Shown here: positions 7,278-29,255 of the stretch, in pieces
How the letters are laid out: each line of letters begins with the position of its first letter
How positions within the stretch are numbered: the stretch's first letter is position 1
NCBI RefSeq assembly: GCF_001005725.1
Contig: NZ_LBIC01000018.1
Location: forward strand, 1 to 64,000
Length of the DNA: 64,000 nt
Direction: 5' to 3'
DNA from: Sphingobium chungbukense
GTDB taxonomy: Bacteria > Pseudomonadota > Alphaproteobacteria > Sphingomonadales > Sphingomonadaceae
Translations under genes and position numbers: made by a program
The notes under the pieces: generated by a model
Databases searched by the model: none
What the model was told of the DNA's origin: nothing
Seen by the model: the letters and a program-made list of their open reading frames with translations, nothing else

Positions 7278-7736
7278 ATGATGAGGATTGAGCTGAAGAT
7301 TAATGGGTCGACCATGTCCGCCGAGGTCGACGATGATACGCCACTACTCTGGGTGCTCCGTGACACGTTGAAGCTCAAAGGTACGAAATATGGCTGTGGC
7401 ATCGGCCAGTGCGGCGCCTGCACGGTCATAGTGGACGGCCAGACCGCCCGATCTTGCTCTTTGGCTGCGACGGCCGCGGTCGGGCTCGAAGTAACCACGA
7501 TTGAGGGGCTTTCGGCCAATGGCGACCAGTTTGTACAGAAAGCTTGGCAGGATATTCGTGTTCCACAGTGCGGATATTGCCAGTCCGGCATGATAATGGC
7601 AGCCACCGCACTTCTCGGAAAGAAACTTTTCCCTACGGACGAAGACATCGATCGCGAGATCACGAACATCTGCCGGTGCGGGACCTATGATCGCATACGC
7701 GCCGCGATCCACGCGGCCGCGAACGGGCGCACGTGA
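7278..7736 (+). CDS. Molybdenum hydroxylase small subunit, 2x[2Fe-2S] (IorA/NdhA-type)
   Basis: About 152 residues, the usual length for the iron-sulfur subunit of two-subunit xanthine-oxidase-family hydroxylases. The N-terminal plant-type [2Fe-2S] site reads [11 protein letters not shown] near residue 43; the C-terminal site reads QCGYCQSGM near 104 and [10 protein letters not shown] near 137. The start is uncertain: ATG codons at 7266, 7278 and 7281 are possible, and I favour 7278/7281 because the domain begins directly with RIELKING. The subunit passes electrons from the molybdenum subunit encoded 7 bp downstream. Relatives hydroxylate N-heterocycles (isoquinoline, nicotinate, nicotine) at the carbon next to nitrogen. 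With pyridine catabolism genes next door, a pyridine-ring substrate is likely. Confidence 0.88.
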
Positions 7737-7743
7737 AGAAGCC

Positions 7744-10023
7744 ATGAATACTGACCGCCGTTCCTTGCTGAAGTCGATCGCCGCCGTTTCGGCAGGTGTG
7801 GTTTTCCCCGTCACTATGACTGGCTGCCGGGTCGCCGATCCTAAGCCTTCCGATTCGGTCGAGCTATTCTCTTGGGTTGTAATGATGCCCGACAACACGG
7901 TTCGCATCCGCATTCCACAGAGCGACATTGGACAGGGTGTGGTCACAACCCTCTCGCAGGTTCTTGCGGAAGAGCTCGATCTGAAATGGTCATCGATCCG
8001 GCCCGAATTCTTCGATCCATTGACGAACCTCAAGCGCAACAATGTGTATGTATATACATGCACGGAGAGCAGTTGGTCAGCTGACCGTCTCTTCAATCCC
8101 ATGAGAATGGCAGGCGCTCAGATCAGACAAATGCTTTTGACCGCTGCCGCCAGGCGCTCGGGCTTCGACGTAGCGGATTTGAGAACCGAGGAGAGCAGCA
8201 TCATATTGCCCGGCGGGGGACGGCAAAGCTACGCGGAGGTCGCGTCCGCCGCCTCCCACATTGCGCCGCCGCACCCCTCGCGGGTCAAACTTAAGGACCC
8301 TGCTGACTACCGGCTGATCGGAAAGCCGATCAAGCGCCTCGATCTGGTTCCCAAGACGACCGGGAAGCTGGAATATGGCATCGATGTCGATTTGCCGGGC
8401 ATGTTGTATGCGGTCGTGCAACAATCCCCTGTCTATGGCGGCAAGCTTGTCTCGTTCGACGAACAAGCGATTGCCAAGATGCCGGGCGTTGTCGGGGTCG
8501 TCCGGATCGCGGCAGGACCTTGCGGCCTCAACGGTCCGCTTGCCGACGGCGGAGAAGATTACGGGATGGACGATGCCGTTGCCGTCGTCGCGGACAGCTT
8601 CTGGAGGGCAAGGAAGGCGCTTCTGGCGCTTCCGATCGAGTGGGATGATGGGGAATTTGCTCACACCAGCAGTGAGTCCATCATGGCGGACCTGGTCAGC
8701 CGGGCTGGGCGGCCGCAGCCGGTAGTCCGGGAAGCCGGAGATTTCGCCGGGTCGATCGGCCGTGCTCACCGCGTTATCGAGGCGGATTATTCCTACCCCT
8801 TCATGGACGCGATGCCGCTTGAGCCGATCAACTGCACCGCATGGCTGAATTCGGACGGACTCCAGGTTTGGGCGTCCACGCAGTTCGCCCAGGAAGCGCA
8901 TCGACTCGCCGCAGTTACCGCCGGGCTGCCGCCTGAACGGGTACAGTTCAATCTGCCATATGTCGGGGGGGGCTTCGGACGGCGTTGCCAGAACGAATAT
9001 GTATCGCAGGCGGTCCAGATCGCGAAGGCCATTCCTGGCAAGCCCATCAAGATGATATGGACCCGCGAAGAGATGATGGCGCGCGGTTATCCGCCACCGA
9101 TTACCATCTCACGCTTCAAGGCGGGGCTTGATGAGAAGGGGAATGTGATCGCGTGGTTCAATCGCGTGATTAGCGGCACTGCGCCCGATCAAAGCTATGG
9201 ACCGGCTCGCCTACCGCACTATGTGCCGAACCTTAGGATCGAGTATGCTCGCGTCAAGACGCCTCAGCCGTTCGGCTGGATGCGCGGCGTGGCGTTCACA
9301 CAGCATGTCTGGATGAACCAGGGATTTCAGGACGAACTGGCGGTCGCCGCTGGACGTGATCCGGTCGACCTTTACATGGACCTGCTGGACGAGGGTTCGG
9401 TGCCCACTGACCTGAAAGGCCGCGACGTCGCCATTCGACGCATCCGGCACATGCGCGCCGTGTTGAAGCGGGTCTGCCAAATCGCCGATTGGGAAACGCC
9501 TCTCTCACAGGGCCGCGGCAAAGGCGTTTCGGTCAGCGACTTCAGCTATTGGGATACCTACCACACTGGCACTGCCTCATCGGTTGTGGAGGTTACGCTT
9601 GACGGCAAAGGCGGGCTTAGAGTCGATCACGTATATGTGGTGATGAACTGCGGCCGCATCCTCAATCCCGAAGTAGTCCGCGGCCAAGTCGAAGGAAGCA
9701 TCTTCTGGGCAATCACTACGGCGCTTTACGGCAAAATCACGCTCAAGGACGGTCGTGTGGTCCAGCGCAATTTCCAGGATCACAACGTCGCTCGGCTTGC
9801 CACTGCCTGTAGAAACATCGTAGTCGAACTTGTCGAGAGCGACGATCATCCTGCCGGCGTTGGAGAGGACGCCGTCCCTATTGTGATGACTGCGATGCTG
9901 AACGCAATTTATGATGCTGGTGGGCCGAGGATTCGCTCGCTTCCGCTCAGCGATCATGTGTTGTCATTTAGAAAACAGGATGGCTCAGACGCGTTGCCTG
10001 GCAAACCATCAGGCAACCTTTAG
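7744..10023 (+). CDS. Molybdopterin-binding large subunit of hydroxylase (IorB/nicotine hydroxylase type)
   Basis: 759 residues from the ATG at 7744. An upstream in-frame start at 7687 would overlap the small subunit and lacks the export signal. The N-terminus carries a twin-arginine motif (DRRSLLKS), then a hydrophobic segment and a cysteine (MTGC), suggesting Tat export and perhaps lipid anchoring, as in IorB-type enzymes. Molybdopterin-family landmarks follow: SQSDIGQGV-like PQSDIGQGVVT near 75, the LPYVGGGFGRR loop near 400, PFGWMRGV near 520, and GVGEDAVPIV near 715, whose E is the catalytic glutamate position. The likely reaction is water-dependent hydroxylation of a pyridine ring, passing electrons to the iron-sulfur subunit and then a cytochrome or other acceptor. 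This is the first step of the VPP nicotine pathway if nicotine is the substrate. Confidence 0.85.
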   Translation: MNTDRRSLLKSIAAVSAGVVFPVTMTGCRVADPKPSDSVELFSWVVMMPDNTVRIRIPQSDIGQGVVTTLSQVLAEELDLKWSSIRPEFFDPLTNLKRNNVYVYTCTESSWSADRLFNPMRMAGAQIRQMLLTAAARRSGFDVADLRTEESSIILPGGGRQSYAEVASAASHIAPPHPSRVKLKDPADYRLIGKPIKRLDLVPKTTGKLEYGIDVDLPGMLYAVVQQSPVYGGKLVSFDEQAIAKMPGVVGVVRIAAGPCGLNGPLADGGEDYGMDDAVAVVADSFWRARKALLALPIEWDDGEFAHTSSESIMADLVSRAGRPQPVVREAGDFAGSIGRAHRVIEADYSYPFMDAMPLEPINCTAWLNSDGLQVWASTQFAQEAHRLAAVTAGLPPERVQFNLPYVGGGFGRRCQNEYVSQAVQIAKAIPGKPIKMIWTREEMMARGYPPPITISRFKAGLDEKGNVIAWFNRVISGTAPDQSYGPARLPHYVPNLRIEYARVKTPQPFGWMRGVAFTQHVWMNQGFQDELAVAAGRDPVDLYMDLLDEGSVPTDLKGRDVAIRRIRHMRAVLKRVCQIADWETPLSQGRGKGVSVSDFSYWDTYHTGTASSVVEVTLDGKGGLRVDHVYVVMNCGRILNPEVVRGQVEGSIFWAITTALYGKITLKDGRVVQRNFQDHNVARLATACRNIVVELVESDDHPAGVGEDAVPIVMTAMLNAIYDAGGPRIRSLPLSDHVLSFRKQDGSDALPGKPSGNL

Positions 10024-10287: not shown

Positions 10288-10393
10288 TAGAGCATTTTCG
10301 AAGGAGATAGCATCATCTGTTGGCTGGGAAAATGCGGAAAACAAAAAACAAATACAGCTTGATCCGATCCAGTCTGATCGGATCAGGCTCTAG
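10288..10393. repeat. Dispersed intergenic repeat, copy 1
   Basis: A roughly 105-bp unit starting TAGAGCATTTTCGAAG and ending in an imperfect palindrome around GATCCGATC/GATCGGATC. A second copy in the same orientation is at 17378-17482. The palindrome lies between two convergent genes and could terminate both. The repeat also supplies the last codons and the TGA stop of the minus-strand hydrolase ending at 10383. The remainder of the gap, 10024-10287, shows no gene. Confidence 0.75.
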
Positions 10394-11324
10394 CTTGAGC
10401 CAGCCCACACGAAACATTCGCATCCAACCATCGAATCATCAGATCGGCGATTTCGTCGCTGTTGGACTCGGCCATTAGCATATGACCATTTCCAGTTATG
10501 CCATGTTCTTCCAAGACGATGTGTTCAAACACTGGAGCCCGTGCTCGTACGTACTCCGCTGCGCGCCTATTGGCATCTCTCATCCATGTGGCTTCACCTG
10601 TCACAATGGCGACCGGCTTCGCGAACGGGTCGTGAAATCCTTGATATGCCTCCGGTGCGAGACCGTTATTGAAGATTCCAAGCGGATGCACCATGCCCGA
10701 GTACCCCAGAGGTTCCGCCGCCAGTACGGCCGCGACCCGCAGCCCGCCAACGGCACTCAGAGCCCATCCGCATGGTCCCCCCATCGAGTGGCTCACTACG
10801 ACGGTCGGGCCGGTCAGATCGAGCAGTTGTTCGGCGATAGCCTCAACGTGACGCTGGCTCGCACCTAGCGAAGTGGCCATCGGTCCTTGGCTCGCCATGA
10901 ACCGGTCACCCGCCAACGGATCGGAGGGCCAGCGGCTATGCTTGGAGGCGCCTTGCCATAAGTCGTGCTTCCCCGGCTCCACGAACCGGGGGTATAGCGT
11001 TCCGTACTCTGCCGCGGGCGTTGCCGGGCCAAGCACGTTTTCGTTCCAGGCTGACCTTCCATGCCCCGGCCGATCGAGGACATATGTTGCATAGCCCGCC
11101 TGCAGGAACCGATGCACCCATCCGCGCCTCCCGTCCGGTGTCCTCACGAAGTCAGCGCCCTGTCCACCGCCGCCATGGACGAAGAGGATAGAAACCGGAC
11201 GGGGATTTACAGGAATGAACCACTGGACATAGGCGTTGATGCCGGGCCACACCGCGTCCCCGGCATCAACAGGCGGCGATGTCAGGAAGACACCGCCAAA
11301 GTCTGCCATTTCAAAGGTGCGCAT
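10383..11324 (-). CDS. Alpha/beta hydrolase, last gene of the nic operon
   Basis: 313 residues with an alpha/beta-hydrolase core: oxyanion-loop region FVHGGGGQGADF near 50, nucleophile elbow SHSMGGP near 180, and a C-terminal histidine in GNGHMLMAE near 285. The N-terminus has a substrate-facing extension (FGGVFLTSPPVDAGD). It starts 5 bp after the flavin monooxygenase gene and closes the nicE-D-X-F operon, so it should act in the same pathway. The known lower nicotinate/nicotine pathway needs only one hydrolase of this fold (NicD, encoded upstream). The role here is therefore unknown: possibly an extra amide, ester or C-C bond hydrolysis. Its last residues and stop codon lie in a dispersed repeat, so the natural C-terminus may have been altered. 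Confidence 0.75.
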   Translation of the reverse strand: MRTFEMADFGGVFLTSPPVDAGDAVWPGINAYVQWFIPVNPRPVSILFVHGGGGQGADFVRTPDGRRGWVHRFLQAGYATYVLDRPGHGRSAWNENVLGPATPAAEYGTLYPRFVEPGKHDLWQGASKHSRWPSDPLAGDRFMASQGPMATSLGASQRHVEAIAEQLLDLTGPTVVVSHSMGGPCGWALSAVGGLRVAAVLAAEPLGYSGMVHPLGIFNNGLAPEAYQGFHDPFAKPVAIVTGEATWMRDANRRAAEYVRARAPVFEHIVLEEHGITGNGHMLMAESNSDEIADLMIRWLDANVSCGLAQARA

Positions 11325-11329
11325 GTTGC

Positions 11330-12493
11330 TCAGAAATGCGTTTCCATCTGCGTCGTGAAGCTCATTTCCCGCTCAACTAGCCGCGGATCTGCGGCCACGG
11401 CGCGGAGGAAAGCGATGCGGTCCTCCTTCTCCTGTCCTTCCTTCAGGTGATAGAGGTTGCGCAGATTGAACGACGCGCGGGGCGACGTAACCTCGGCAAA
11501 CACCCGACGACGATCGCGCTCGTAAAATTCGAGTATTTCCTCCCCTGCCCCGTCGTGGATGACCCTGTTCAAAGCGCCGATCAGGGCGAAAGCATCGAAC
11601 ATGCCGCCAGTCAGGCCAAGCCCGCCTGTGGGGTTGGTGATATGGCCAGCGTCACCGACAAGCAGGATCCGCCCCACACGCATCCGATCGGCTATGCGCT
11701 GGTGCATGCGGTAGGGCGAGTAGGCGAGCACCTCATAGGGCAGGTCGGGCAGGTGATCAGCGAACATCGTGTGGATGCGCTCTTCCAGCCCCTCGAAAGG
11801 TAGCTCTGGGTCTTCGACAAAGGTTACCCGCCAGACGTCGGGCTGCTCGATCTTGCAGATAATGGAGCCGTGCTTCTGATCGAGCTGCATGACGGACTCA
11901 GGATAGTTCAGCGCCGACAGGTTGATTCTCGTGTTCGTCGCCACATAGCGCTCGGGCCAGGTTGTCCCCAGAAACTGGAGCCCCAGTACATTCTGGCGTA
12001 CCGTGCTGTTCGCGCCATCCGCCCCTATGAGATAGTCGCCTTCCAGCACTGCCGATCCATTGGGTCCCTCGACCTCCGCGATCACGCCGGCCGCAGTCTG
12101 GCAGCATCCGGTCAGCTTCGTTCGCAGCAATATCTCCACATTCGGCTGCGCCGAGACATGCCGTGCAATGATCTTGGACAACAACCCTTGGTGCAGATGA
12201 AGCGCATTCCCCCCCATCCCCTCAGGCGTCCATTTCCACTCAATAAGTTCGCCCGTGCTGTGGATACGCCAGCCGAAGGTCTGGCGCAGGAAACCCTCCG
12301 CTTCACAGTCCTGCAACAGTCCAAGCCGGTCGAGGTGGGGCAGAACCGGATAGTGATAGACCAGCGCACGCGGCTTATCGTTGAACTGCTCCTCTGCCTC
12401 GATAATCGTGACACGCGTGCCTTCCTTCGCGAGGCCGAAAGCGGTTAGCAGGCCAATGGGCCCGGCTCCAACGACGATTACATGTTGAGCCAT
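11330..12493 (-). CDS. FAD-dependent monooxygenase (6-hydroxy-3-succinoylpyridine hydroxylase-like)
   Basis: 387 residues from the ATG at 12493 (GGAGGGAACC upstream; the frame opens at 12526). A class A flavoprotein monooxygenase: FAD-binding GxGxxG in VIVVGAGPIGLLTA, DG motif LIGADGANSTVR near 165, and GD motif ILLVGDAGHITNPTGG near 285. The segment PRALVYHYPVLPHLDRLG after the first domain fits the UbiH/PheA-like group that includes the HSP hydroxylases of the VPP nicotine pathway. It does not fit NicC (6-hydroxynicotinate monooxygenase), whose N-terminus differs. The expected reaction is oxidative removal of the side chain of 6-hydroxy-3-succinoylpyridine, giving 2,5-dihydroxypyridine and a succinate derivative. 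Its position directly after nicF and in the same operon as nicX, which uses that product, supports this. Confidence 0.75.
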   Translation of the reverse strand: MAQHVIVVGAGPIGLLTAFGLAKEGTRVTIIEAEEQFNDKPRALVYHYPVLPHLDRLGLLQDCEAEGFLRQTFGWRIHSTGELIEWKWTPEGMGGNALHLHQGLLSKIIARHVSAQPNVEILLRTKLTGCCQTAAGVIAEVEGPNGSAVLEGDYLIGADGANSTVRQNVLGLQFLGTTWPERYVATNTRINLSALNYPESVMQLDQKHGSIICKIEQPDVWRVTFVEDPELPFEGLEERIHTMFADHLPDLPYEVLAYSPYRMHQRIADRMRVGRILLVGDAGHITNPTGGLGLTGGMFDAFALIGALNRVIHDGAGEEILEFYERDRRRVFAEVTSPRASFNLRNLYHLKEGQEKEDRIAFLRAVAADPRLVEREMSFTTQMETHF

Positions 12494-12539
12494 TGCGGTT
12501 CCCTCCAGTTGTTTTCTGGTGCGCATGCACCTGCGTTAT

Positions 12540-13160
12540 TCAAAGCTTTTCGATCCAATCGGTCACGTCCGCGGCGTCGGTGACGTCGCCATATTTCTGA
12601 TCGATGTCATAAAGGCTGGCTTCATGTGGCGCGTTCGCGCGATCAGCACAGCAGTCGCGCGGCACCAGAACGTTGAAGCCGGACTGCACTGCATCCACGA
12701 CGGTCGCCCGGACACAACCGGACGTAGTCGCGCCCGTTACCACTACGGTATCGACACCCGCCCCGGTGAGCATGGCCGCCAGGTTCGTGCCATGGAATGC
12801 TGATGCGCCATGCTTCACCACGATCGGATCGCCATCGGAGATCCCGGTCGCCGCATCGATCTCAACGAGCCTGCTCCCCGCGAGAAGCGCTCTCATTCCG
12901 GTGGCCTTACGCAGCCAGGCCAACGTCTCGACCTCCCAGGGCTGGTAGGCGATAGTCGTGTAGATAACGGGAAAACCACGGCTTCGGGCCAGATCGGTGA
13001 TGGCACGGGTTCGCGCGATTTGCGCATGCATATCCGCCGCCGTCGGGTAAACAGTGTCGGTGAAGCCATAGGTAAAATCGACCACCACGACCGCCGGTCG
13101 AGTGCCGCGGGGCACGCTGCCTCCGAACCCCGCCTTTTCATAGACTTCATCCTGCGACAT
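12540..13160 (-). CDS. nicF: Maleamate amidohydrolase (isochorismatase-like)
   Basis: 206 residues of the cysteine-hydrolase/isochorismatase family. The predicted triad is D28 (VVVVDFTYGF), K116 (DPIVVKHG) and C149 (TTSGCVRAT); the cis-peptide-bearing VTGATTSG loop precedes the cysteine. Known NicF/Ami enzymes hydrolyse maleamate to maleate and ammonia, step four of 2,5-dihydroxypyridine breakdown. The ATG at 13160 overlaps the end of nicX by 14 bp, in keeping with tight coupling. The family also contains carbamoylsarcosine and other amidases, so the assignment leans on context: nicX, nicD and nicE are all adjacent and well matched. Confidence 0.85.
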   Translation of the reverse strand: MSQDEVYEKAGFGGSVPRGTRPAVVVVDFTYGFTDTVYPTAADMHAQIARTRAITDLARSRGFPVIYTTIAYQPWEVETLAWLRKATGMRALLAGSRLVEIDAATGISDGDPIVVKHGASAFHGTNLAAMLTGAGVDTVVVTGATTSGCVRATVVDAVQSGFNVLVPRDCCADRANAPHEASLYDIDQKYGDVTDAADVTDWIEKL

Positions 13161-14202
13161 CGAACACCTTACCCCCTTCGCAAGCCGTCAGGTCCTTCGC
13201 TACGACTGCTCCGTCCAGCAACACCGGTTCTCCATCCAAAAACAGCGAGCAACCGCGCAGCGGTATATCGAGATGGCAGTCCGTGTCGTTCATGCCGCCA
13301 AGCTCGTTATTTGGACCGGTTGAGAACAGCACGTTGCCAAGAAAGCTACGCACCTCCATGCCCATTCCGCCGGGGAATTCGCCGGGCGTCATCCGGTGCC
13401 ACTTGGCGTCAGGATTCATTCCCCAGCCGATGTGGCTCAGCGCAAAGCCGCGCGGATCATTAAAGTCCGCCATGTACGACTTGACCAGATCAGCTTCCAA
13501 GCCGCCCCGGATCGAGGTGACGACGCCCTTCTCGATCGTGTATGTTATAGGCTCGCGCACATAAATGTTCTGCGGCAGCAATATGTCGCCCGGCGCGATG
13601 ACGATCTGCCCGTCCACGCCGTCGTCGTCGCCGCCTGTAAAGACGAAGCCGGATGGCCAGTGATCCCATCGGCCCGGCGTGTCGGTGCAGGCATATTCGG
13701 TGACAGTGGGATAGGTGCCAAGCTTATACGTGACGTCCGTCCCATAAGGCGACGTGATGTGCATCGATTTCGCGCGACCCAGCAACTCGCCTGCGACCTC
13801 CACTTTCTCACGCAACTCCCTGGAAGGCAGCATCCGCGCGAGCAACTCCGGCGGCTCCACAACCGTAAGGACGCGAGCACCCGCGGCCTGGATCGCCATC
13901 TGCTCGGGCGAGAACAGCAGGAAGATGCAGTCGATCACCATATCGGCATTCTTCAATGCCTCCACGGCTTCAGGCATCCGCGAAAGCGGCGTCTGCCCTA
14001 CCGCCCAATTGCCCATCGGTGCAGGCGCCGGCAGCCGCATGTGGTAGATATTCGCCTTGAGCGCCCGGCCCGCAGCGAGAAACGCGTCGGCATAATCTAG
14101 TCGCTCGTCACCCTGAGTCAGCACGACCAGCCGCTCGTCGGCGCGAACACCGGACATTTTCAGCTGGTGGAGGCATATCTCCGCGAAACTAGCGCGATCC
14201 AT
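13147..14202 (-). CDS. nicX: 2,5-dihydroxypyridine 5,6-dioxygenase
   Basis: 351 residues from the ATG at 14202, which has AAGGAGG upstream; the frame opens at 14268 but inside nicD. The sequence closely follows Pseudomonas putida NicX as I recall it: EPPELLARMLPS near 116, PGRWDHWPSGF near 176, HIGWG at 257 and CHLDIPLR at 309. NicX is a mononuclear Fe(II) extradiol-type ring-cleavage enzyme unrelated to classical extradiol dioxygenases. H257, H310 and D312 fit its metal ligands. It opens 2,5-dihydroxypyridine to N-formylmaleamate using O2. It overlaps nicD upstream and nicF downstream by 14 bp each. This gene is the strongest single marker that the operon degrades a pyridine ring. Confidence 0.95.
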   Translation of the reverse strand: MDRASFAEICLHQLKMSGVRADERLVVLTQGDERLDYADAFLAAGRALKANIYHMRLPAPAPMGNWAVGQTPLSRMPEAVEALKNADMVIDCIFLLFSPEQMAIQAAGARVLTVVEPPELLARMLPSRELREKVEVAGELLGRAKSMHITSPYGTDVTYKLGTYPTVTEYACTDTPGRWDHWPSGFVFTGGDDDGVDGQIVIAPGDILLPQNIYVREPITYTIEKGVVTSIRGGLEADLVKSYMADFNDPRGFALSHIGWGMNPDAKWHRMTPGEFPGGMGMEVRSFLGNVLFSTGPNNELGGMNDTDCHLDIPLRGCSLFLDGEPVLLDGAVVAKDLTACEGGKVFDVAG

Positions 14203-15016
14203 TTGCGGTGGCCTCCTTGATGTCGGCTTGAAAACCTGCGACCGCGCCGAGGAAACCGTCCAGATCATCCCACGGTATCATGTGCCCTGCGCCTTCGACG
14301 GTCACGACCTCGATGCCGGGCGCCAGTGTCCGAATTTCTTCAATATCTGCCGTTTCGATGACCGGCGAGCCACCGGCCACGACGAGCCGTATCGGCAGGT
14401 CAAGGTGCGGCAAGTCGGCATGAACGTCATCCGTATGAAAGCCTTTATAGGCCGCGTCGATCGCGCGCAGTTCGCACGTGTGGAGCCATTCAGCACGCAG
14501 CGCGCGCTGATCCTGAGTCCAGGTTGGGCAGAATGCCTTCATTTCTTCCGCCGAGCAGCCGCGCTGCGCCAGCAAGATCGAATCCTCATACCATGGCCAT
14601 GCCGAGGGATAGGGGCGACGGCCCGGCCCGCTTACGGGCGGATCGGCCAAGATCAGCCCGGCAAAAATCCCGGGCGCTTTCCGGGCGGCGCGGATCGCGG
14701 TGCGGGCGCCCATGGAATGACCAAGAATCACCGGACGATCGAGATCAAGAACACCCGTCAGCGCGACGACATCATCCGCCATTGCATCCAGGGAATAATC
14801 AAGGTCGCCAGCTTGACTTAATCCGCGGCCCCGAACGTCGAGCACATGAACCTCGTACGTCTCGGCCAGGCGAGCGGCAACGAAATCCCACGTGACCGCT
14901 GGCGACGTGATGCCAGGCACGAGAAGCATCTGACGCCACCCAGGCGCGCCATGGCGCACAAGATGGTGCCGGATGCCGTTCGCATGAACGTTGTATCCGA
15001 AAGGACTGCCGTCCAT
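14189..15016 (-). CDS. nicD: N-formylmaleamate deformylase
   Basis: 275 residues, alpha/beta-hydrolase fold. It matches P. putida NicD along its length: LVPGITSPAVTWDFVA near 32, VLDVRGRGLS near 58, LADPPVSGPGRRPYPS near 123, RAEWLHTC near 174 and GHMIPWDDLDGF near 244. S101 (GHSMGAR), D125 and H245 take the positions of the catalytic triad. It removes formate from N-formylmaleamate, the nicX product, giving maleamate for NicF. The start codon is two bases after the nicE stop. The motif match is specific enough to separate it from general hydrolases. Confidence 0.95.
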   Translation of the reverse strand: MDGSPFGYNVHANGIRHHLVRHGAPGWRQMLLVPGITSPAVTWDFVAARLAETYEVHVLDVRGRGLSQAGDLDYSLDAMADDVVALTGVLDLDRPVILGHSMGARTAIRAARKAPGIFAGLILADPPVSGPGRRPYPSAWPWYEDSILLAQRGCSAEEMKAFCPTWTQDQRALRAEWLHTCELRAIDAAYKGFHTDDVHADLPHLDLPIRLVVAGGSPVIETADIEEIRTLAPGIEVVTVEGAGHMIPWDDLDGFLGAVAGFQADIKEATANGSR

Positions 15017-15771: not shown

Positions 15772-16432
15772 TTGCCCTCTCCTTTGCTGCTGTGGCAACA
15801 TTAATTCGTCTGTTGGATAAATACAAGGTCGAATATCCATGGGGTCCAGCTTGGCTTATGCATATCGGAGCCGGTCCTAATTTAGTCAGGTGTCAAACAC
15901 ATGACCGATTGGACGCTGCGCCTGCGACAGCGGCCGCTGCCTATGCGCATTCTCACTTGATTTCTTTTTCTGTATAATTGATTGTGGAAATATCGGGAAG
16001 TTACCTTGCGCGCAGCATATCTGGCCGATGTGCGATTGCAGGCTGCCCGTGGGTCCTGTCTGTTTGGTTGCGAACCGCCGACCGGATTCAGTTTATAACG
16101 AGATTGAAAGATTTTCGTCGCGCGGCCGAACAAGGCGCGCCAGCGAAGATACGAGAGGAATGCACTGGATGCCACCGCAAATAACAAACGTCCAGAAACA
16201 GTCCGAAAGTTTGAATCGGCGGCATCTGGTGAGCGCCGCAGGTATCGAAGGCTCGAGCGTTACGCGTGCTTCGTGCATCTCGCGTGATACCTGGAGGAGT
16301 TCAGGGGATAAGTCCTCCCACTCCTTTGCCAATTCAAAGCGCGCGCGCCCTCGGTGTACGCCGCGTCACGCGCCCACTCATCATCATTGCCAGGAGAAGG
16401 GTGGTGCTGCTGAAGAGCCCATAACCGCTGCA
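15772..16432. other. Divergent region between nicE and the AraC-type gene
   Basis: This 660-bp stretch must carry the nicE operon promoter. An open frame in phase with the AraC-type domain runs through it from 16028, but the predicted peptide is basic, low in hydrophobics and unlike any AraC ligand-binding domain, so I do not treat it as coding. A clear operator could not be picked out by eye. Confidence 0.4.
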
Positions 16433-20885: not shown

Positions 20886-21611
20886 TTATGGCACGGCCGC
20901 CTGGATGCCCGCAGCGAGAAACTCGACCATGTGGTCGAGCATCTCGTCCTTGGAAATATGCCTGATCTCACCTTCAGTCAGGTCCTCAATGCGGCCGAGA
21001 TCGTTCAGCATGAAGAGATATGTCCCCACGAGAAACGCCATGCGCAGGCCGATGGTTCTCTTGGGAATGTCGGGGAGCACCTTCGCCAGCGCATCGACAT
21101 ACCGCTTGACTGAGGCGTCGTAGACCTCCCGCCGCAGTCTCAGCGCATGCTCTTCCGGCTCGGCGTGCAGACGGGCCTGAAGGCGCACGAAGGCGGACCC
21201 CGCCTCTCCGCTGTACTTCAGATCCCATTGTGGTTGAAGATAAGCGCGGACGATCGCCTTGACCGTTAACGGTTTTCCTCCTTCAAGAAGCTGATCCAGC
21301 AGAACGTGACGGCGTCCGGACAACAATCCGCCGCGACGACGATAAACCTCATCGAACAGCTGCTGCTTGCTCTCGAAATAATAGCGGATCAACCCCTGGT
21401 TAACGCCCGCCCGCTCGGCGATATCGCGGATGCTGATGCCCGCATAGCCCCCTTCTGCGAAGGCGATCTCCGCCTTGTTGAGGATCGTCTCGCGATGGTT
21501 GCCGTCCTTCCTTGGCCGACCAGGCTTACGCCGCCTTTCTGTAGCTTCCGTCTTTTTTTCCGGAGCGGCCGCGGCCTGCGCTTCAGCTTCCATTCTCACC
21601 GCTTCCAACAT
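20886..21611 (-). CDS. TetR-family transcriptional regulator
   Basis: About 241 residues. After a basic, alanine-rich leader (RRRKPGRPRKDGNHRE) comes the TetR helix-turn-helix (ETILNKAEIAFAEGGYAGIS, then IAERAGVNQGLIRYYFESK) and a mainly helical ligand-binding domain. The gene ends 43 bp from the end of the convergent amine dehydrogenase gene. Its own promoter faces the 21.7-22.8 kb region, so it may control the plus-strand operon starting at 22793 or the amine dehydrogenase; no operator could be picked out. Starts at 21611 or 21593 are both possible. Confidence 0.85.
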   Translation of the reverse strand: MLEAVRMEAEAQAAAAPEKKTEATERRRKPGRPRKDGNHRETILNKAEIAFAEGGYAGISIRDIAERAGVNQGLIRYYFESKQQLFDEVYRRRGGLLSGRRHVLLDQLLEGGKPLTVKAIVRAYLQPQWDLKYSGEAGSAFVRLQARLHAEPEEHALRLRREVYDASVKRYVDALAKVLPDIPKRTIGLRMAFLVGTYLFMLNDLGRIEDLTEGEIRHISKDEMLDHMVEFLAAGIQAAVP

Positions 21612-22792: not shown

Positions 22793-23932
22793 ATGGCCAG
22801 CCCGGCAAAGATAGATTTTGTTTATTTATCCGAGAGCGACATGATCGCAGCGGGTGTGACCGACATGCCGACCTGCGTCGATACGATGGAGGAGATGTTC
22901 GGGCTCTTGTGGCACGGCGACTATCGCATGGCGGGTGCCAATAATGACTCCCATGGCGCGATGGTGTTGTTTCCAAAGGAGTCTCCTTTCCCCGACATGC
23001 CGAAGGCGACTGCCGACCGCCGCTTCATGGCCATGCCCGCCTATCTTGGCGGTCGCTTCCGTACAGCCGGCGTCAAATGGTATGGATCGAACGTTGAAAA
23101 TCGTGAGAAAGGCCTGCCGCGGTCTATCCTGATGTTCGTGCTCAATGACGCAGACACGGGTGCGCCTCTTGCCTTCATGTCCGCCAATCTCCTGTCAGCG
23201 TACAGGACCGGCGCCATTCCCGGCGTCGGGGCTCGCCATCTGGCGCGTCGGGACTCCAAAGTGGTCGGCCTTGTCGGCCCCGGCGTCATGGGTAAGACCA
23301 CGCTCATGGCTCTGTGCGCCGTTTGTCCCGACATCGACACGATCAAGATCAAAGGGCGCGGCAAATCCAGTATCGATAGCTTCCTCGCCTGGCTCAAATC
23401 CGACATGCCCCAGATCGCGAACATCGAGGTGGTCGATACGATCGAGGCGGCGGTTCGCGAATCCGACATCGTCACCTACTGCAACACCGGTCTGTCCGGC
23501 GACCCATCGACCTATCCTCTTGTCAAACGTGAATGGGTCAAGCCCGGCGCTTTCCTGGCTATGCCATCCAGCTGTGAGATCGACAGTGACATGGAAGCTC
23601 CGGAAGTTCGTAAGGTCGTGGACAATACTGGTCTCTATGAAGCCTGGTTTGAAGAGTTGCCAAAGCCTGCGCACAATGTGGTGCCCGTCATTGGCGTAAA
23701 GTTCATGGACATGATCGCCGAAGGCCGGATGGCCAAAGAGGATCTCGAGGATTTGGGTCGCATCGTCGCTGGAGAGGCCCCGGGCCGGACGAATGATGAG
23801 GAGATCATCATCATGTCGGTGGGCGGAATGCCGGTTGAGGACGTCGCCTGGGGCACGATCGTTTATCGAAACGCCATCGAACGCAACATCGGGCAATCCC
23901 TGAACCTTTGGGAAACGCCCGTTCTGCGCTGA
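22793..23932 (+). CDS. Ornithine cyclodeaminase-like NAD(P)-binding protein (tyramine oxidase subunit B-type)
   Basis: 379 residues of the ornithine cyclodeaminase/mu-crystallin superfamily. The Rossmann motif VGLVGPGVMGKTTL is near residue 158, the active-site region KWYGSN near 94, and the NLLSAYRTGAIPGVGARHLA helix precedes the nucleotide domain. It is longer than ordinary ornithine cyclodeaminases (about 320-350 residues). It resembles proteins annotated as the second subunit of tyramine oxidase. Family members reduce cyclic imines or deaminate amino acids with NAD(P)H. As first gene of an operon with RidA and flavin amine oxidases it could handle an imine formed during alkaloid side-chain oxidation. 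GGAGAG precedes the ATG. Confidence 0.72.
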   Translation: MASPAKIDFVYLSESDMIAAGVTDMPTCVDTMEEMFGLLWHGDYRMAGANNDSHGAMVLFPKESPFPDMPKATADRRFMAMPAYLGGRFRTAGVKWYGSNVENREKGLPRSILMFVLNDADTGAPLAFMSANLLSAYRTGAIPGVGARHLARRDSKVVGLVGPGVMGKTTLMALCAVCPDIDTIKIKGRGKSSIDSFLAWLKSDMPQIANIEVVDTIEAAVRESDIVTYCNTGLSGDPSTYPLVKREWVKPGAFLAMPSSCEIDSDMEAPEVRKVVDNTGLYEAWFEELPKPAHNVVPVIGVKFMDMIAEGRMAKEDLEDLGRIVAGEAPGRTNDEEIIIMSVGGMPVEDVAWGTIVYRNAIERNIGQSLNLWETPVLR

Positions 23933-23983
23933 TGCATAATCCGTATTCGGCCAGATCGGCCGCGCTACTTAGTCGGAGGACAA

Positions 23984-24406
23984 ATGGTTAACGTCGTAAA
24001 ACTCAAGACCGGCTCAAGATATGAGGATCTGGCGAGCTATTCGCGACTGGTAGCGGTCGATAACTTGATATTCGTTTCCAACACCGCGGGCCGCAATCCT
24101 CAAACGCAGGAGATACCGGACGATGTCACCCAACAGACCGAACAGGTGATAGCCAACATCGAGCGCGCGCTTGGCGCGGTCGGAGCAAGCCTTGGCGACG
24201 TGGTTGCGTCCCGCATTTTCATCCAGGACCCGGCCGACGTACCAGCGGTCATGGCCAAGGTAGGGGAACGTTTCCGCGGCGTCGATCCGGCGATGACATT
24301 GACGTGTCCTCCACTTAGTTCGAACGTGTACAAGGTCGAGATCGAAGTGACCGCATTCCGGGGCGCTTCGAAGGGTAAGGTGGAAACCCGACGACTGTCG
24401 ATCTGA
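23984..24406 (+). CDS. RidA-family enamine/imine deaminase
   Basis: 140 residues, the normal length for the YjgF/YER057c/UK114 (RidA) family. Landmarks are AVDNLIFVSNTAGRNP, the VTQQTEQVIANIERAL helix, VVASRIFIQDPADVPAV and the VYKVEIEVTAF end. The arginine of archetypal RidA (R105) sits in a C-terminal [SA]RxxV-type motif; here that place reads PLSSNVYKVEIEV without an arginine. This places it in one of the Rid subfamilies (Rid1-7) with unproven imine hydrolase activity. It is encoded between a cyclodeaminase-like protein and a DAO oxidase, both producers or users of imines. An imine-handling role is therefore plausible. Confidence 0.8.
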   Translation: MVNVVKLKTGSRYEDLASYSRLVAVDNLIFVSNTAGRNPQTQEIPDDVTQQTEQVIANIERALGAVGASLGDVVASRIFIQDPADVPAVMAKVGERFRGVDPAMTLTCPPLSSNVYKVEIEVTAFRGASKGKVETRRLSI

Positions 24407-24448
24407 CCCACGTCGTCGTCGCTCCATCGGCGGCGGGTATATATATGT

Positions 24449-25765
24449 ATGAAGGATAGCCAGGTGGAATCGCCAACCGCATCCATAACAACTAGCGACA
24501 GGCTTCCGCGATCCGCTTCCGTGGTCATTATCGGGGGTGGGATCGTTGGGCTGACAGCGGCGCTCACGCTCAGCGAGCGCGGTGTTCAGGTGGTTGTCCT
24601 GGAAAAGGGGTCGGTAGCGGGGGAGCAGTCGTCCCGTAACCAGGGCTGGATTCGCAAGACCAGTCGCGCTCCGGCCGACGTGCCGCTGGCTGCCGCTTCA
24701 GACCGGCTTTGGGCTGGATTGGCAGAGCGGGTCGGTTCCGATGTAGGCTATCGGCAGGCCGGCATTCTCTTTCTCGCTAAAAGCGAGGCGGAAATGCATG
24801 TCCACGAGAAATGGCTACAATCCGTCGAGCAGTGCGATCTGGATTCTCGTCTGCTCACCCTGCGGGATATCGATCACCTCGTTCCTGGCGGACGCGGCGA
24901 CTGGGCTGGGGGCATCTATACGCCGTCGGACGGGCGTGCCGAGCCCTCGCTAGCCGCCTACGCGATCGCGCGCGCCGCACGCGCCAAGGGGGCGATCATA
25001 CTCGAAAACTGTGCGGTGCGCTCGCTCGTCCTTTCTGGCAGTCGTGTCACGGGTGCAGTGACAGAGCATGGCGAGATCCGCAGCGATGCCGTTTTGCTGG
25101 CGGGCGGCCTGTGGTCGCGGCGCTTCCTGGGTAATCTGGGCGTCGATCTTCCGACTTTGCCGCTTACTGTGTCGGTGGCCCGCACCGCTCCGATGGAGGG
25201 GCCGACCGAGATTGCCGTGGGAGGGCCGGACTTTTCCTTTCGGAAACATGCGGATGGCGGCTTTATCGTAACCCAGCGCAGTGCCGTAAAGGCGCCGATC
25301 ACGCTTGACCATCTCTTGATCGGCCAACGATATATTTCCTCCCTGAAGACCCAAGGGCGGTATCTTCGAGTGTCGATCGGGCGCGAATTCTTTCAGGATC
25401 TGGCCCTTCCTCGCCGCTGGAAACCTGATGCCCGTTCACCCTTTGAGCGTGTCCGAACAAAAGATCCGGCGATCGATCAACGCGCAATCGGTGAAGCTTT
25501 CGCTGCTCTGAGTGCAGCCTGGCCCGTATTCGAGCAGGCCGAAATCGTCCAGACGTGGGCAGGAACCGTGGATGTCACCCCGGACTCAACGCCAGTCATC
25601 GATCACGTGAGCAGCATCCCCGGGCTGACCGTCTGCACGGGCTTTTCAGGTCATGGCTTCGGAACCTCGCCTGCGGCGGGTGAACTGGCGGCCGACCTGA
25701 TAACGGGCGCCGACCCCATAATAGATCCGTCACCCTATCGGTTCGGGCGGTTCGCAGCATCTTAG
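24449..25765 (+). CDS. FAD-dependent oxidoreductase of the DAO (DadA/glycine oxidase) family
   Basis: 438 residues. The N-terminal FAD site is VVIIGGGIVGLTAALTLSERG (split here by its conserved acidic end VVVLEKG), followed by GEQSSRNQGWIRKTSR, which is typical of DAO-family amino acid or N-methyl amine oxidases/dehydrogenases. The C-terminal motif VTPDSTPVIDHVSSIPGL and GFSGHGFGTSPAAGELAADLI closes the FAD site. It could oxidise a secondary amine such as N-methylaminobutyrate, methylated amino acids or D-amino acids. It is third in the 22793 operon, 42 bp after the ridA-like gene. Confidence 0.8.
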   Translation: MKDSQVESPTASITTSDRLPRSASVVIIGGGIVGLTAALTLSERGVQVVVLEKGSVAGEQSSRNQGWIRKTSRAPADVPLAAASDRLWAGLAERVGSDVGYRQAGILFLAKSEAEMHVHEKWLQSVEQCDLDSRLLTLRDIDHLVPGGRGDWAGGIYTPSDGRAEPSLAAYAIARAARAKGAIILENCAVRSLVLSGSRVTGAVTEHGEIRSDAVLLAGGLWSRRFLGNLGVDLPTLPLTVSVARTAPMEGPTEIAVGGPDFSFRKHADGGFIVTQRSAVKAPITLDHLLIGQRYISSLKTQGRYLRVSIGREFFQDLALPRRWKPDARSPFERVRTKDPAIDQRAIGEAFAALSAAWPVFEQAEIVQTWAGTVDVTPDSTPVIDHVSSIPGLTVCTGFSGHGFGTSPAAGELAADLITGADPIIDPSPYRFGRFAAS

Positions 25766-25869
25766 CAATCGGTCCATCCGAAACGATTAGCGGGTCGGCT
25801 TCCGCAAAATCAGGCCGAAGATCATAAAGACCACTTGTTGGACCCACTATCGAGAGGACAGGAGCCGCA

Positions 25870-27270
25870 ATGAACGCCTACAAAATGCTCATAGATGGTC
25901 AGCTGGTGGATGGTGCGCGCATCATCCCGGTCATAGATCCTTCGACGGGCGAACCGTTCGCCCAGGCCCACGCCGCCGATGGGGCGCAGATCGACGAAGC
26001 GGTCGCATCTGCGGCGCGTGCGTTCCCGGCATGGGCGGCGGCACCTTGGGAAACGCGCCGTGCGTGCCTGCTGGAGTTCGCGCAGCGCCTCGAAAACGAG
26101 ACGGATAGCTTTACGCACCTCCTTATCAGGGAGCAGGGCAAACCCTATGGCGAAGCCCGTTTCGAGGTCGAGGCAACGATCCGCGGCATCCGTTTCTATG
26201 CGAATGTCGAGCTGAAGGCCGAGACGCGAACCCACCCCACGGGCGATTATGAGGTCGAGCGCCGCCCGCTTGGTGTCGTGGCCGGTATTACGCCGTGGAA
26301 TTTCCCGATGATCCTGGCGAGCAACAAATATGCGCCCGCTCTCATTACCGGAAACACGATCGTCCTCAAACCTGCGGCGACCACGCCTCTGACAACCCTG
26401 GAACTGGGCCGTCTGGCCGCCGACATTTTCCCCCGTGGCGTGTTCAATATCGTTGCTGACAACAACGACCTTGGTGCGCGCCTGGCCGGGCACCCGGACA
26501 TCGCCAAGGTTTCGTTCACCGGCTCCACGAACACCGGCAAGGCCGTTCTGAGAAGCGCTGCGGACGATATGAAGCGCGTTACTCTCGAACTAGGCGGCAA
26601 CGATCCCGCCATCGTGCTGGCGGATGCTAATGTCGAGGCGGCGGCCCGGGGCCTCGCTGCCACCGCCTTCCTCAATGCCGGCCAGGTATGCGCAGCGCCC
26701 AAGCGCCTCTATGTCGCCGACCAGATATATGATGATTTCAGGGAGCGGTTCGTGACCGCCACACGCGAAATCAGGATGGGGGCTGGCGACGAGGACGGCG
26801 TAACGCTCGGGCCTGTTCAGAACCGCATGCAGTTCGACAAGGTGCGCGGCATGATCGAAGAGGCAGCAGCATCCGGCACGGTACTGACCGGCGGCCACGT
26901 CGCCAATCGACCAGGCTTTTTCATCGAGCCGACCATCATTGCCGATCTCGACGATCAGGCTCCGCTGGTTACCGACGAACAATTCGGCCCCGTCGTGCCG
27001 CTACTGCGCTTTACGGATGAGGCGGACGCGATCGCGCGTGCCAACGAGGGCGCTTTTGGATTGGGCGCCTCCATCTGGACGCGGGACATCGATCGCGCGC
27101 GGCAGCTTGCTCGCGGCATCACGGCGGGCAGCGTTTGGATCAACCAGCACATCGCCATCCATCCCGATATCCCGTTTGGGGGCGTAAAGCAGTCCGGTCT
27201 TGGTTCGGAAGGCGGGATTGAGGGGGTGTACGAATACACCCGATTACAAGTGATCAATGCCGCAGGATAG
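25870..27270 (+). CDS. NAD(P)-dependent aldehyde dehydrogenase (semialdehyde type)
   Basis: 466 residues, complete. The cofactor segment ITPWNFPM is near 141, the general base E is in TLELGGNDP near 240, and the catalytic C is in NAGQVCAAPKR near 275. GVKQSGLGSEGG lies near the C-terminus. The closest functional groups are succinate-semialdehyde and related long semialdehyde dehydrogenases. Here two roles fit: oxidation of the (6-hydroxy-)3-succinoylsemialdehyde-pyridine released by the amine dehydrogenase, or oxidation of succinate semialdehyde released by the FAD monooxygenase. Only one such gene is in the window, so it may do both, or the other may be elsewhere. It lies just before the amine oxidase gene. 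Confidence 0.85.
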   Translation: MNAYKMLIDGQLVDGARIIPVIDPSTGEPFAQAHAADGAQIDEAVASAARAFPAWAAAPWETRRACLLEFAQRLENETDSFTHLLIREQGKPYGEARFEVEATIRGIRFYANVELKAETRTHPTGDYEVERRPLGVVAGITPWNFPMILASNKYAPALITGNTIVLKPAATTPLTTLELGRLAADIFPRGVFNIVADNNDLGARLAGHPDIAKVSFTGSTNTGKAVLRSAADDMKRVTLELGGNDPAIVLADANVEAAARGLAATAFLNAGQVCAAPKRLYVADQIYDDFRERFVTATREIRMGAGDEDGVTLGPVQNRMQFDKVRGMIEEAAASGTVLTGGHVANRPGFFIEPTIIADLDDQAPLVTDEQFGPVVPLLRFTDEADAIARANEGAFGLGASIWTRDIDRARQLARGITAGSVWINQHIAIHPDIPFGGVKQSGLGSEGGIEGVYEYTRLQVINAAG

Positions 27271-27309
27271 CATTCGCGATAGCGGCACCGGAAGCCAAAG
27301 AGGAGCAGC

Positions 27310-28779
27310 ATGACTACGCATCAGGACAATGACGAGCCAATGGACGATCGACACTTGGATCGGCGATCGCTGATGAAATTCGGCGCCGCGGCTGCGGGCT
27401 CAATCGCGCTGGTCAGCTGCGCCAAGGAAAACCCGAACCGGGAAGCGCGTGACGGCAAGGACGAAGGTCCCTACGATGTCGTGGTCGTTGGTGCTGGTTA
27501 CGCCGGTGTCACCGCCGCCCGCGAACTGGCTGCCCAGGGTTGGCGAGTAGTGGTCCTCGAAGCGCGTCCGCGCATTGGTGGCCGTACCTTCACAAGTAAA
27601 TTCCTTGGTCGCCAGATCGAATTGGGCGGCTCGTCGGTGCACTGGTTACAGCCGCATGTCTTCGCCGAGATGCAGCGTTACGGCTTCGGCTTCCAGGAAG
27701 TGCCGCTGCGCAACCTGGACAAGGCCTATGTGATGACTGCCGATGGCAAGGTGCACGATGTGCCACCGGCACGTTTTGACGCTGGCTACGACGACGCGTT
27801 CAAGAAGTTCTGCGAAGGCGCCAGGACCCTTTTCCCGCAACCCTTCTCGCCCTTCGCCAACCCGGAGGTTGCCAAGCTGGACGAGATTTCGGCCGCCGCG
27901 AGGATGGCAAAGCTCGACCTTGACCCTATCCAGCGCGCGTCGCTGAACGCGGAGCTGGTGCTCTACGCGGGATCCCCCACGAACACGTTCAGCGCCATGA
28001 GCTTCGTGAAGCTGGCCGCACTCGCGGCCTGGGATCCATATACCTTCACAGACTCAGAAAAGCACTGGCACATCGCCAATGGCGGCACTGCCGCACTCGC
28101 GAAAGCGATCCTCGACGACAGCAAGGCCGACGTCAGGCTCGGCACCGTAGTCAAGCAGGTGGAGACCACCGCGACAGGCGTCACGCTGCGTACTGCCGAT
28201 GGACAGATGGTCGAGGCAAAAGCGGTGCTTTTCACGTTGCCGACCCAGGTCTATCCGGACATAGAATTCAAGCCGGGCCTCTCCGCAGAGAAGCGCGCAT
28301 TCATCAAGAACGGGGACATCTGCGACGGCGCGACGATGTATATGCGCATCAAGCAGAATATCGGCAACACCTTCGCCTTCTGCGACGATCCCAATCCCCT
28401 GAACGCCATCCAGACCGAGGAGTCTGACGACACGGTGGGTACGATCCTGAAGGCGACCCTTGGCCGCCAATCCCTCCTCGACATCAACGACCAGGACGCC
28501 GTCAACGCCGAACTGCGCAAGATCCATCCGACTGCGGAGATCACCGACATCGCACCCTATAACTGGGTCAAGGACCCGTTTTCCAAGCAGGCGTGGCCTG
28601 CCTACCGGGCGGGATGGTTCAAGAAGTATAAGGACATGGCGAAGCCGGAAGGCCGCATGTTCTTCGCAGGTTCCGGGACGGCGGACGGCTGGCACGCCTA
28701 TATCGACGGCGCTGTCGAAAGTGGTATTCGTGCGTGCCGTGAGGTGACGCAGTTGCTCGAGAAGGGAAACCAACAATGA
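27310..28779 (+). CDS. Flavin-containing amine oxidase/dehydrogenase, NicA2-like
   Basis: 489 residues. A twin-arginine signal (DRRSLMKFG) and a lipobox-like LVSC near residue 36 predict Tat export with lipid anchoring. The FAD site VVVVGAGYAGVTAAREL is near 57, followed by EARPRIGGRTF. HWLQPHVFAEMQRYGFG near 115, ELVLYAGSPTNTFS near 220 and GWHAYIDGAVESGIRA near the C-terminus closely follow P. putida S16 nicotine oxidoreductase NicA2 and pseudooxynicotine amine oxidase, as I recall them. Expected reaction: oxidation of the pyrrolidine C-N bond of nicotine or 6-hydroxynicotine, or of the side-chain amine of pseudooxynicotine. The stop overlaps the start of the cytochrome c gene. NicA2 is known to pass electrons to a cytochrome c (CycN), so the pairing supports the assignment. 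Confidence 0.82.
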   Translation: MTTHQDNDEPMDDRHLDRRSLMKFGAAAAGSIALVSCAKENPNREARDGKDEGPYDVVVVGAGYAGVTAARELAAQGWRVVVLEARPRIGGRTFTSKFLGRQIELGGSSVHWLQPHVFAEMQRYGFGFQEVPLRNLDKAYVMTADGKVHDVPPARFDAGYDDAFKKFCEGARTLFPQPFSPFANPEVAKLDEISAAARMAKLDLDPIQRASLNAELVLYAGSPTNTFSAMSFVKLAALAAWDPYTFTDSEKHWHIANGGTAALAKAILDDSKADVRLGTVVKQVETTATGVTLRTADGQMVEAKAVLFTLPTQVYPDIEFKPGLSAEKRAFIKNGDICDGATMYMRIKQNIGNTFAFCDDPNPLNAIQTEESDDTVGTILKATLGRQSLLDINDQDAVNAELRKIHPTAEITDIAPYNWVKDPFSKQAWPAYRAGWFKKYKDMAKPEGRMFFAGSGTADGWHAYIDGAVESGIRACREVTQLLEKGNQQ

Positions 28780-29255
28780 TCAACCGGTTGTTGAGGTACC
28801 GTCGTTTGACGGCATGCGCGACGTTGTGCCTCGGCGCGCTCGCTGCATGCTCGAACCCGACGGCCGACGGAAACAAGCAGGACGGAAACACCGCCCCCGC
28901 ACTGTCCGCCTCCGCGGACTATTCTGCCCTGGCGAGCAATCCTGCGGAGGTCGAGGCCGGGAAGAAGGTTTTCAGCAATTGCGCCGTTTGCCACTCCGCA
29001 GAGGCTGGGGCGCCGTCCCCGGCCGGTCCCGCCCTCGCTGGGGTGCTTGGCCGCAAAATCGGTGGCGCGGCAGAATATCCATACTCCCAGGCTTTGGCAA
29101 AGGCTGAGGGGGATTGGACGCCCGAGAAGCTTGACACTTTCCTGAAGAACCCGATGGAAGCTTATCCGGGCACCGCCATGGCGTTCGGAGGCCTGGCCAA
29201 GGGTTCCGATCGAAAGGCCGTGGTCGCTTATCTGGCAAGCACCGGCTCGAGATAG
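28776..29255 (+). CDS. Lipoprotein cytochrome c, CycN-like electron acceptor
   Basis: 159 residues: a signal sequence ending in a lipobox (LGALAAC near residue 26), a linker, then one class I cytochrome c domain. That domain has the haem site CAVCH near 71 and a methionine axial ligand candidate in GTAMAFGGL near 135. Family length and the GPALAGVLGRKIGG motif fit cytochrome c2/c550 types. It overlaps the amine oxidase by four bases (ATGA), implying translation in fixed ratio. It probably takes electrons from the amine oxidase, and perhaps from the exported molybdenum hydroxylase, to the respiratory chain. Confidence 0.85.
   Translation: MINRLLRYRRLTACATLCLGALAACSNPTADGNKQDGNTAPALSASADYSALASNPAEVEAGKKVFSNCAVCHSAEAGAPSPAGPALAGVLGRKIGGAAEYPYSQALAKAEGDWTPEKLDTFLKNPMEAYPGTAMAFGGLAKGSDRKAVVAYLASTGSR

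Follow-up and report, generated by a model that had tools for sequence, protein, structure and literature searches.

A stretch of 64,000 nucleotides from Sphingobium chungbukense (contig NZ_LBIC01000018.1, positions 1 to 64,000; hereafter, the window) carries an island of catabolic genes that is very probably the ndp cluster for degradation of nicotine by the VPP hybrid pathway, a reading that includes the order of its steps and, by inference, the placement of the first two enzymes, NdpA and NdpB, as lipid-anchored proteins on the periplasmic side of the membrane with a cytochrome c in common. An earlier sequence-only reading of positions 7278-29255 had proposed a VPP-type nicotine island in a sphingomonad, and this was borne out by comparison with annotated plasmids. 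With positions 7200-31000 as the megablast query, 62 plasmid records were matched, and in two of them a single place covered at least 80% of the query. Plasmid pSH1 of Sphingobium xenophagum aligned as one 23.8 kb segment at 99.0% nucleotide identity and plasmid p1 of S. fuliginis KK22 in three pieces at 98.3%, both copies carrying ndp gene names in their annotation; because a single alignment of that length is 99.0% identical to an annotated plasmid, a chance match is excluded. The stretch is a near-exact copy of a described cluster, with a few passenger genes of open role. IS66-type and Tn3 transposase genes lie within the block of the KK22 plasmid, whereas the block in the window is free of mobile genes. 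The copies in four of the compared loci (L004, L005 of S. estronivorans, L014 and L015) are near-identical to that of the window and hence not independent.

The combination of enzymes, described in the earlier reading as an unusual mix, is already published as the Sphingomonadaceae ndp cluster of Sphingomonas melonis TY (PMC5343071). By its published description, the TY cluster has the same ndpA-H genes, AraC and TetR regulators, TonB receptor, cytochrome c and flavin reductase. Its ndpAL, ndpB, ndpC and ndpD were tested by knock-out and complementation, and Sphingobium homologues, that of KK22 included, were already listed (PMC5343071). By sequence, the island belongs to this Sphingomonadaceae ndp branch and not to the Rhizobiales vpp branch, given its 99.0% and 98.3% identity to the ndp plasmids against 45% (NdpAL) and 56% (NdpB) to Shinella HZN7; the values reported for TY against the vpp enzymes, 45% and 54%, are close to the latter (PMC5343071).

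The presence of the individual enzymes was examined by Pfam scans, NCBIfam models, PDB matches and residue checks, and all those named earlier were found where they had been placed. Pfam families identified the 2Fe-2S and Mo-cofactor subunits, the FAD monooxygenase, the isochorismatase (nicF), the alpha/beta hydrolase (nicD), the Amdase-type isomerase (nicE), the FMN/Fe-S enzyme, the aldehyde dehydrogenase, the amine oxidase and the cytochrome c. The NicX-type NdpE gave no Pfam match and was instead recognized through PDB entry 7cn3 (E 2e-93), of which it keeps His265, His318 and Asp320 (7cn3 numbering), presumably the iron ligands of NicX. The NicD-like NdpF likewise conserves Ser101, Asp125 and His245, which we take to be its catalytic triad, and the claim of agreement down to ligand and triad positions was thereby confirmed. 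The amine oxidase, the FMN/Fe-S enzyme and the monooxygenase are nearest to 6cr0, 6l6j and 7da9 (HspB), respectively, all VPP-type enzymes; for NdpC, the match to 6l6j spans residues 1-669 with 1371 bits, the runner-up being histamine dehydrogenase with 682 bits. A nicotinate pathway was dropped as a candidate, given the match of the monooxygenase to HspB (E 1.5e-138) and the presence of side-chain enzymes.

All nine of the core VPP enzymes listed in PMC7688666 are encoded in the one cluster, so that "nearly complete" was too cautious a description. The limits proposed for the island were too narrow for the block as conserved in plasmid loci L014 and L015, which has the TonB receptor (from 3410) at one end and a second FAD oxidoreductase (to 35490) at the other and also takes in the flavin reductase, an APC permease and an MFS-like protein (Table 1). 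Within the original limits, an extra hydrolase, the AraC and TetR regulators, SnoaL-like and PhyH proteins and an OCD-RidA-FAD gene set had gone unlisted.

Pathway and order of steps

The sequence of ring hydroxylation and side-chain oxidation, left open in the earlier reading, is given by the mutants of TY, which place the intermediates in the order nicotine, 6-hydroxynicotine, 6-hydroxypseudooxynicotine, 6-hydroxy-3-succinoylpyridine (HSP) and 2,5-dihydroxypyridine (PMC5343071). The corresponding step types are ring hydroxylation, pyrrolidine dehydrogenation, amine removal and HSP hydroxylation; growth of TY on nicotine is accompanied by induction of these genes, and its ndpB mutant accumulates 6-hydroxynicotine (PMC5343071). 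By analogy, ring hydroxylation most likely comes first in the present island also, and nothing in its sequence relationships speaks for another order. Annotation settles the function of the island and, through the comparison with TY, the order of its steps, the roles of NdpA to NdpD having been demonstrated in that organism and transferred here.

As proposed, NdpA would hydroxylate the pyridine ring of nicotine to give 6-hydroxynicotine, and NdpB would dehydrogenate the pyrrolidine ring to 6-hydroxy-N-methylmyosmine, which would open to 6-hydroxypseudooxynicotine. NdpC would then remove methylamine from the latter, the aldehyde dehydrogenase would produce HSP, NdpD would convert this to 2,5-dihydroxypyridine, and NdpE, F, G and H would carry 2,5-dihydroxypyridine to fumarate. 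NdpA and NdpB, lipid-anchored on the periplasmic side, would both use the neighboring lipoprotein cytochrome c, with the consequence that only a later intermediate would cross the inner membrane.

The vpp/nct clusters of Shinella HZN7, Agrobacterium S33 and Ochrobactrum SJY1 encode the same reactions as the window. In Shinella HZN7, genes for RidA, the aldehyde dehydrogenase and the 6-hydroxynicotine enzyme also follow the same order, and in S33 an enzyme encoded upstream of hno oxidizes nicotine semialdehyde (PMC8552603). An azurin-type copper protein is encoded beside the vpp/nct genes, in contrast to the cytochrome c of the window.

Separately, ndpC-like genes adjoin an OCD-RidA-FAD cassette in L008 (2616-4592) and L013 (113-2050). 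Their product is 48% identical to NdpC of the window, against 84% in L009, and is possibly a paralog with another amine substrate.

Cell location and electron acceptor of the first two enzymes

The N-termini of NdpA and NdpB suggest that both first steps take place in the periplasm on lipid-anchored enzymes. NdpAL begins MNTDRRSLLKS followed by MTGC, and NdpB holds DRRSLMKFG followed by LVSC, each the pattern of a twin-arginine (Tat) motif and then a lipobox; the cytochrome c has a hydrophobic signal ending LAAC. The twin-arginine motif was kept in all seven NdpAL sequences checked (L007, L010, L011, L012, L014, L015 and Shinella), and the NdpAL lipobox was found in L007, L012, L014 and L015. 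The lipobox pattern of NdpB occurs in 9/9 loci of the sets L004-L009 and L013-L015, as well as in L010, and fails in L011 and L012 (LQSC); NctB of the Shinella vpp/nct cluster, unlike NdpB, is without a signal peptide motif. With a lax pattern, the lipobox of the cytochrome was recovered in 11 of 12 loci, L010 failing.

NdpB is most similar among PDB entries to 6cr0, an (S)-6-hydroxynicotine oxidase (568 bits). The next matches (448 bits) were 7kho, 7khn and 5ttj, which we take to be NicA2 entries. By this comparison, the amine oxidase, noted earlier for its resemblance to NicA2, gives no evidence of a step of the pyrrolidine pathway, and a NicA2-type pyrrolidine pathway was dropped. By sequence, NdpB falls among the 6-hydroxynicotine dehydrogenases published as the "NctX" group: it is 56% identical to NctB (within the range of 55-60%), lies in an ndp cluster next to a cytochrome c gene, and has, by pattern, the Tat motif and LVSC of a membrane-anchored lipoprotein. 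Enzymes of this group act on 6-hydroxynicotine and probably hand their electrons to the neighboring cytochrome c; those of the Sphingomonadaceae are predicted lipoproteins and cytochrome-c-using dehydrogenases, one of which could not be produced in soluble form (PMC12272882). NicA2-CycN of P. putida S16 is a comparable pair, the amine dehydrogenase being likewise Tat-exported and the cytochrome c encoded next to it (PMC12224317). NicA2 differs in acting on nicotine itself, the pyridine being hydroxylated later, and is farther from NdpB in sequence than is NctB.

An alignment of ten NdpB/NctB proteins, in which an offset of 8 reproduced the published NctB letter at 7/7 positions, allowed seven of the 21 published switch positions to be read. 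At positions 68, 90, 100, 214, 300, 328 and 329, NdpB of the window has S, V, V, I, T, E and E where NctB has G, A, M, V, E, Y and A, and hence the dehydrogenase letter at all seven; the flavin-facing lysine is also conserved (K381). Four of these positions vary among eight relatives: position 68 is S except for C in L011 and A in L012, position 100 is split between V and I, with four relatives each, position 300 shows T in four, with N in L010, C in both L011 and L012 and D in L013, and position 329 is E except for Y in L011 and L012.

The cytochrome c gene adjoins ndpB in 12/12 loci (L004-L015), and none lies beside nctB of Shinella. Cytochrome c as the acceptor would fit the very weak activity reported for purified NdpB of TY (PMC5343071). 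NdpA and NdpB may share this one cytochrome; the available portions of PMC12272882 and PMC7688666 contain no statement of NdpA as a lipoprotein or as sharing a cytochrome. In Agrobacterium S33, NdhAB is periplasmic with a pseudoazurin and relies on a small carrier protein because FAD is absent, with a cytoplasmic oxidase acting as the second enzyme (PMC7688666).

Several points weigh against this arrangement or against the assignment as a whole. The lipobox calls are pattern matches only, and by the same search the NdpAL lipobox is missing in L010, L011 and Shinella. Plasmid annotation begins NdpAL at the equivalent of position 7777 (ATC), a start that would leave out the Tat motif; preferred here as the probable start is the ATG at 7744, which is preceded by GAAGAAG and lies after the ndpAS stop. 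The residue test covers 7 of 21 published switch substitutions, and use of nicotine by the present strain is a prediction from its genes. Moreover, TY ndpB and ndpA, each introduced singly on a plasmid, gave activity in Sphingomonas aquatilis (PMC5343071), and the cluster's own cytochrome is therefore not strictly needed in that host.

That NdpB is instead a periplasmic O2-using oxidase within the same pathway, the cytochrome c serving only NdpA or some other enzyme, appears unlikely. The function of TY NdpB alone in S. aquatilis speaks for it, as does the finding that most tested Tat-exported relatives without a neighboring cytochrome are oxidases (PMC12224317). Nevertheless, the cytochrome gene of the window overlaps ndpB by 4 bases and is its constant neighbor in the loci compared, and both the residues at the switch positions and the feeble activity of the purified TY enzyme argue for a dehydrogenase. 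A missing cytochrome as the reason why ndp genes failed in P. putida KT2440 was considered and dropped, because the carrier-independent NdpC and NdpD failed there too (PMC5343071).

The amine cassette and the natural substrate

With the cluster assigned, what is usefully left is narrow, namely the cytochrome, which NdpA and NdpB may share, and an amine cassette. The latter consists of contiguous genes for an OCD-family protein, a RidA protein and a DAO-type FAD oxidoreductase (22793-25765), the first of which scores above its family cut-off (Table 1). Tyramine-oxidase-type cassettes elsewhere have the same gene order, whereas that of the window sits inside the nicotine island. The OCD gene was present, as a single copy each, in six of 11 genomes or records in which NdpB or NctB occurs, and was missing from N. 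guangzhouense (L006), L010, L011, L012 and the Shinella plasmid.

Among 396 Sphingomonadales genomes, NdpB was detected in two (E <= 1e-120) and OCD in nine (E <= 1e-100), including those two. As the two NdpB-bearing genomes (G000 and G257) are near-identical and not independent, L008, L009 and L013 are the better evidence for the association. In all seven NdpB-less genomes the three genes are contiguous and their order is kept (7/7); five of these stretches hold an aldehyde dehydrogenase of 35-41% identity (L033, L034, L036, L037 and L038), and three a full-length match to the permease (L033, L034 and L036). A nicotine-specific origin of the cassette was rejected, seven of the nine OCD-bearing genomes being without NdpB at the threshold used; it seems to be a general module for amines that came to be linked with the nicotine genes.

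The cassette is a candidate for handling the amine once it is released, a step for which no assignment was found in the available portions of the papers. It is conceivable, though doubtful, that two extracytoplasmic nicotine oxidations, with lipid-anchored NdpA and NdpB passing electrons to one lipoprotein cytochrome c, are combined with a recruited OCD-RidA-FAD cassette that handles the amine freed from nicotine or a related alkaloid, e.g., methylamine or a nornicotine-derived primary amine. For the glutamylmethylamide synthetase family, the genome gave no match above the cut-off. A search for methylamine dehydrogenase was uninformative, as no control genome gave a match either, and literature searches on the cassette found neither a paper on it nor a characterized reference.

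The cassette also bears on the possibility that the enzymes mainly serve another 3-substituted pyridine, such as nornicotine or anabasine, with nicotine incidental and the cassette handling the resulting primary amine. Its recurrence with NdpB or NctB could be taken in this sense, as could the close clusters in gammaproteobacteria. The latter, from a Halieaceae metagenome-assembled genome (L010), Pseudohalioglobus lutimaris (L011) and a further metagenome-assembled genome (L012), are of ndp type with many ndp genes, an NdpB 56-67% identical to that of the window and an adjacent cytochrome c, ndpC not being seen within the 20.2 kb of L010. In the order of Pseudohalioglobus, 2 of 244 genomes had NdpB (E <= 1e-120), both of them already known; the P. 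lutimaris enzyme is mentioned in PMC12272882. This alternative is nonetheless very unlikely: enzymes of the NdpC type have the N-methyl intermediate of nicotine as their substrate, a cluster of the same type supports growth of TY on nicotine (PMC5343071), and the cassette, being present in seven genomes without NdpB, is no pointer to a pyridine.

A mixed pathway that begins with attack on nicotine itself by a NicA2-type enzyme, for which the second-best rank of the NicA2 entries and the Tat signal and cytochrome arrangement common to NdpB and NicA2 might be cited, is scarcely credible in view of the 6-hydroxynicotine oxidase as nearest relative (568 against 448 bits) and the accumulation of 6-hydroxynicotine by the TY ndpB mutant (PMC5343071).

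Genes of the block and its surroundings

The genes of the ndp block are collected in Table 1. The reading frame of the TonB receptor begins at TTG, and its true start may be further in; its product is 98% and 96% identical to those of L014 and L015 and 71-75% to those beside ndp genes in L007 and L013, and a TonB receptor appears in the legend of the ndp figure of PMC7688666. Relatives of the MFS-like protein, a candidate for the cluster's transporter, occur at 45-54% identity in L006-L011 (in L008, over 164 residues only). Among the loci compared, the near-identical L004, L005, L014 and L015 were the only ones with the APC permease.

Table 1. Genes of the ndp block in the window, with the evidence for each.
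Gene or product	Position	Strand	Evidence
TonB-dependent receptor, probable outer-membrane uptake protein of the cluster	3410..5899	-	Pfam TonB receptor and plug
ndpAS, 2Fe-2S subunit of nicotine dehydrogenase	7281..7736	+	Pfam Fer2, Fer2_2; start per L014 annotation; 61% to Shinella HZN7
ndpAL, Mo-cofactor subunit	7744..10023	+	Pfam MoCoBD; Tat motif, lipobox MTGC, GVGE motif
Alpha/beta hydrolase, role open	10383..11324	-	Pfam; conserved with ndp genes, 60-68% in L010, L011, L013
ndpD, 6-hydroxy-3-succinoylpyridine 3-monooxygenase	11330..12493	-	PDB 7da9 HspB, E 1.5e-138; start per L014 annotation
ndpG, maleamate amidohydrolase	12540..13160	-	Pfam Isochorismatase; L014 annotation
ndpE, 2,5-dihydroxypyridine dioxygenase (NicX type)	13147..14202	-	PDB 7cn3, conserved residues
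ndpF, N-formylmaleamate deformylase (NicD type)	14189..15016	-	Pfam; Ser101, Asp125, His245
ndpH, maleate isomerase	15019..15723	-	Pfam Amdase; L014 annotation
AraC-type regulator	16160..16906	+	Pfam; start per L014 annotation
SnoaL/NTF2-like protein	16894..17277	+	Pfam; relatives adjoin ndpC in L009, L011, L012
PhyH-type dioxygenase, role open	17652..18527	+	Pfam
ndpC, 6-hydroxypseudooxynicotine dehydrogenase (Pno type)	18819..20843	+	PDB 6l6j
TetR-type regulator	20886..21593	-	Pfam; 67% to TetR beside ndhA in Shinella HZN7
OCD-family protein, "tyramine oxidase subunit B" family	22793..23932	+	NCBIfam NF004848, 703.9 bits (cut-off 362)
RidA family protein (imine hydrolase type)	23984..24406	+	Pfam/NCBIfam
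DAO-type FAD oxidoreductase of amine cassette	24449..25765	+	Pfam
Aldehyde dehydrogenase	25870..27270	+	Pfam; 60% to gene preceding nctB in Shinella
ndpB, 6-hydroxynicotine dehydrogenase	27310..28779	+	PDB 6cr0; Tat motif, lipobox LVSC
Cytochrome c, likely electron acceptor	28776..29255	+	CAVCH; lipobox-type signal LAAC; 4-base overlap with ndpB
Flavin reductase family protein	29364..29984	+	Pfam
APC-type amino acid permease	30817..32370	+	Pfam/NCBIfam
MFS-like membrane protein, candidate transporter	32795..33976	+	GTG start; Pfam MFS_1 25.7 bits, under cut-off 33.4
Second DAO-type FAD oxidoreductase, role open	34033..35490	+	61-81% in L008, L010, L011

Beyond the block, genes for an Abhydrolase_3 alpha/beta hydrolase and a beta-lactamase-family serine hydrolase lie in tandem at 36368-38500. 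Genes for sugar use follow at 38491-48571, encoding a ROK kinase, a GH68 levansucrase/invertase, an MFS sugar transporter, a TonB receptor and a LacI regulator, and among them is an IS66 transposase gene (44928-46502). Together with a Tn3-family transposase gene at 56414-59332, the latter fits a mobile or plasmid-like setting of the window. Factors of the XdhC/CoxI type mature molybdenum hydroxylases, and one such protein is encoded at 53728-54801, outside the conserved ndp block, where it may serve another enzyme.

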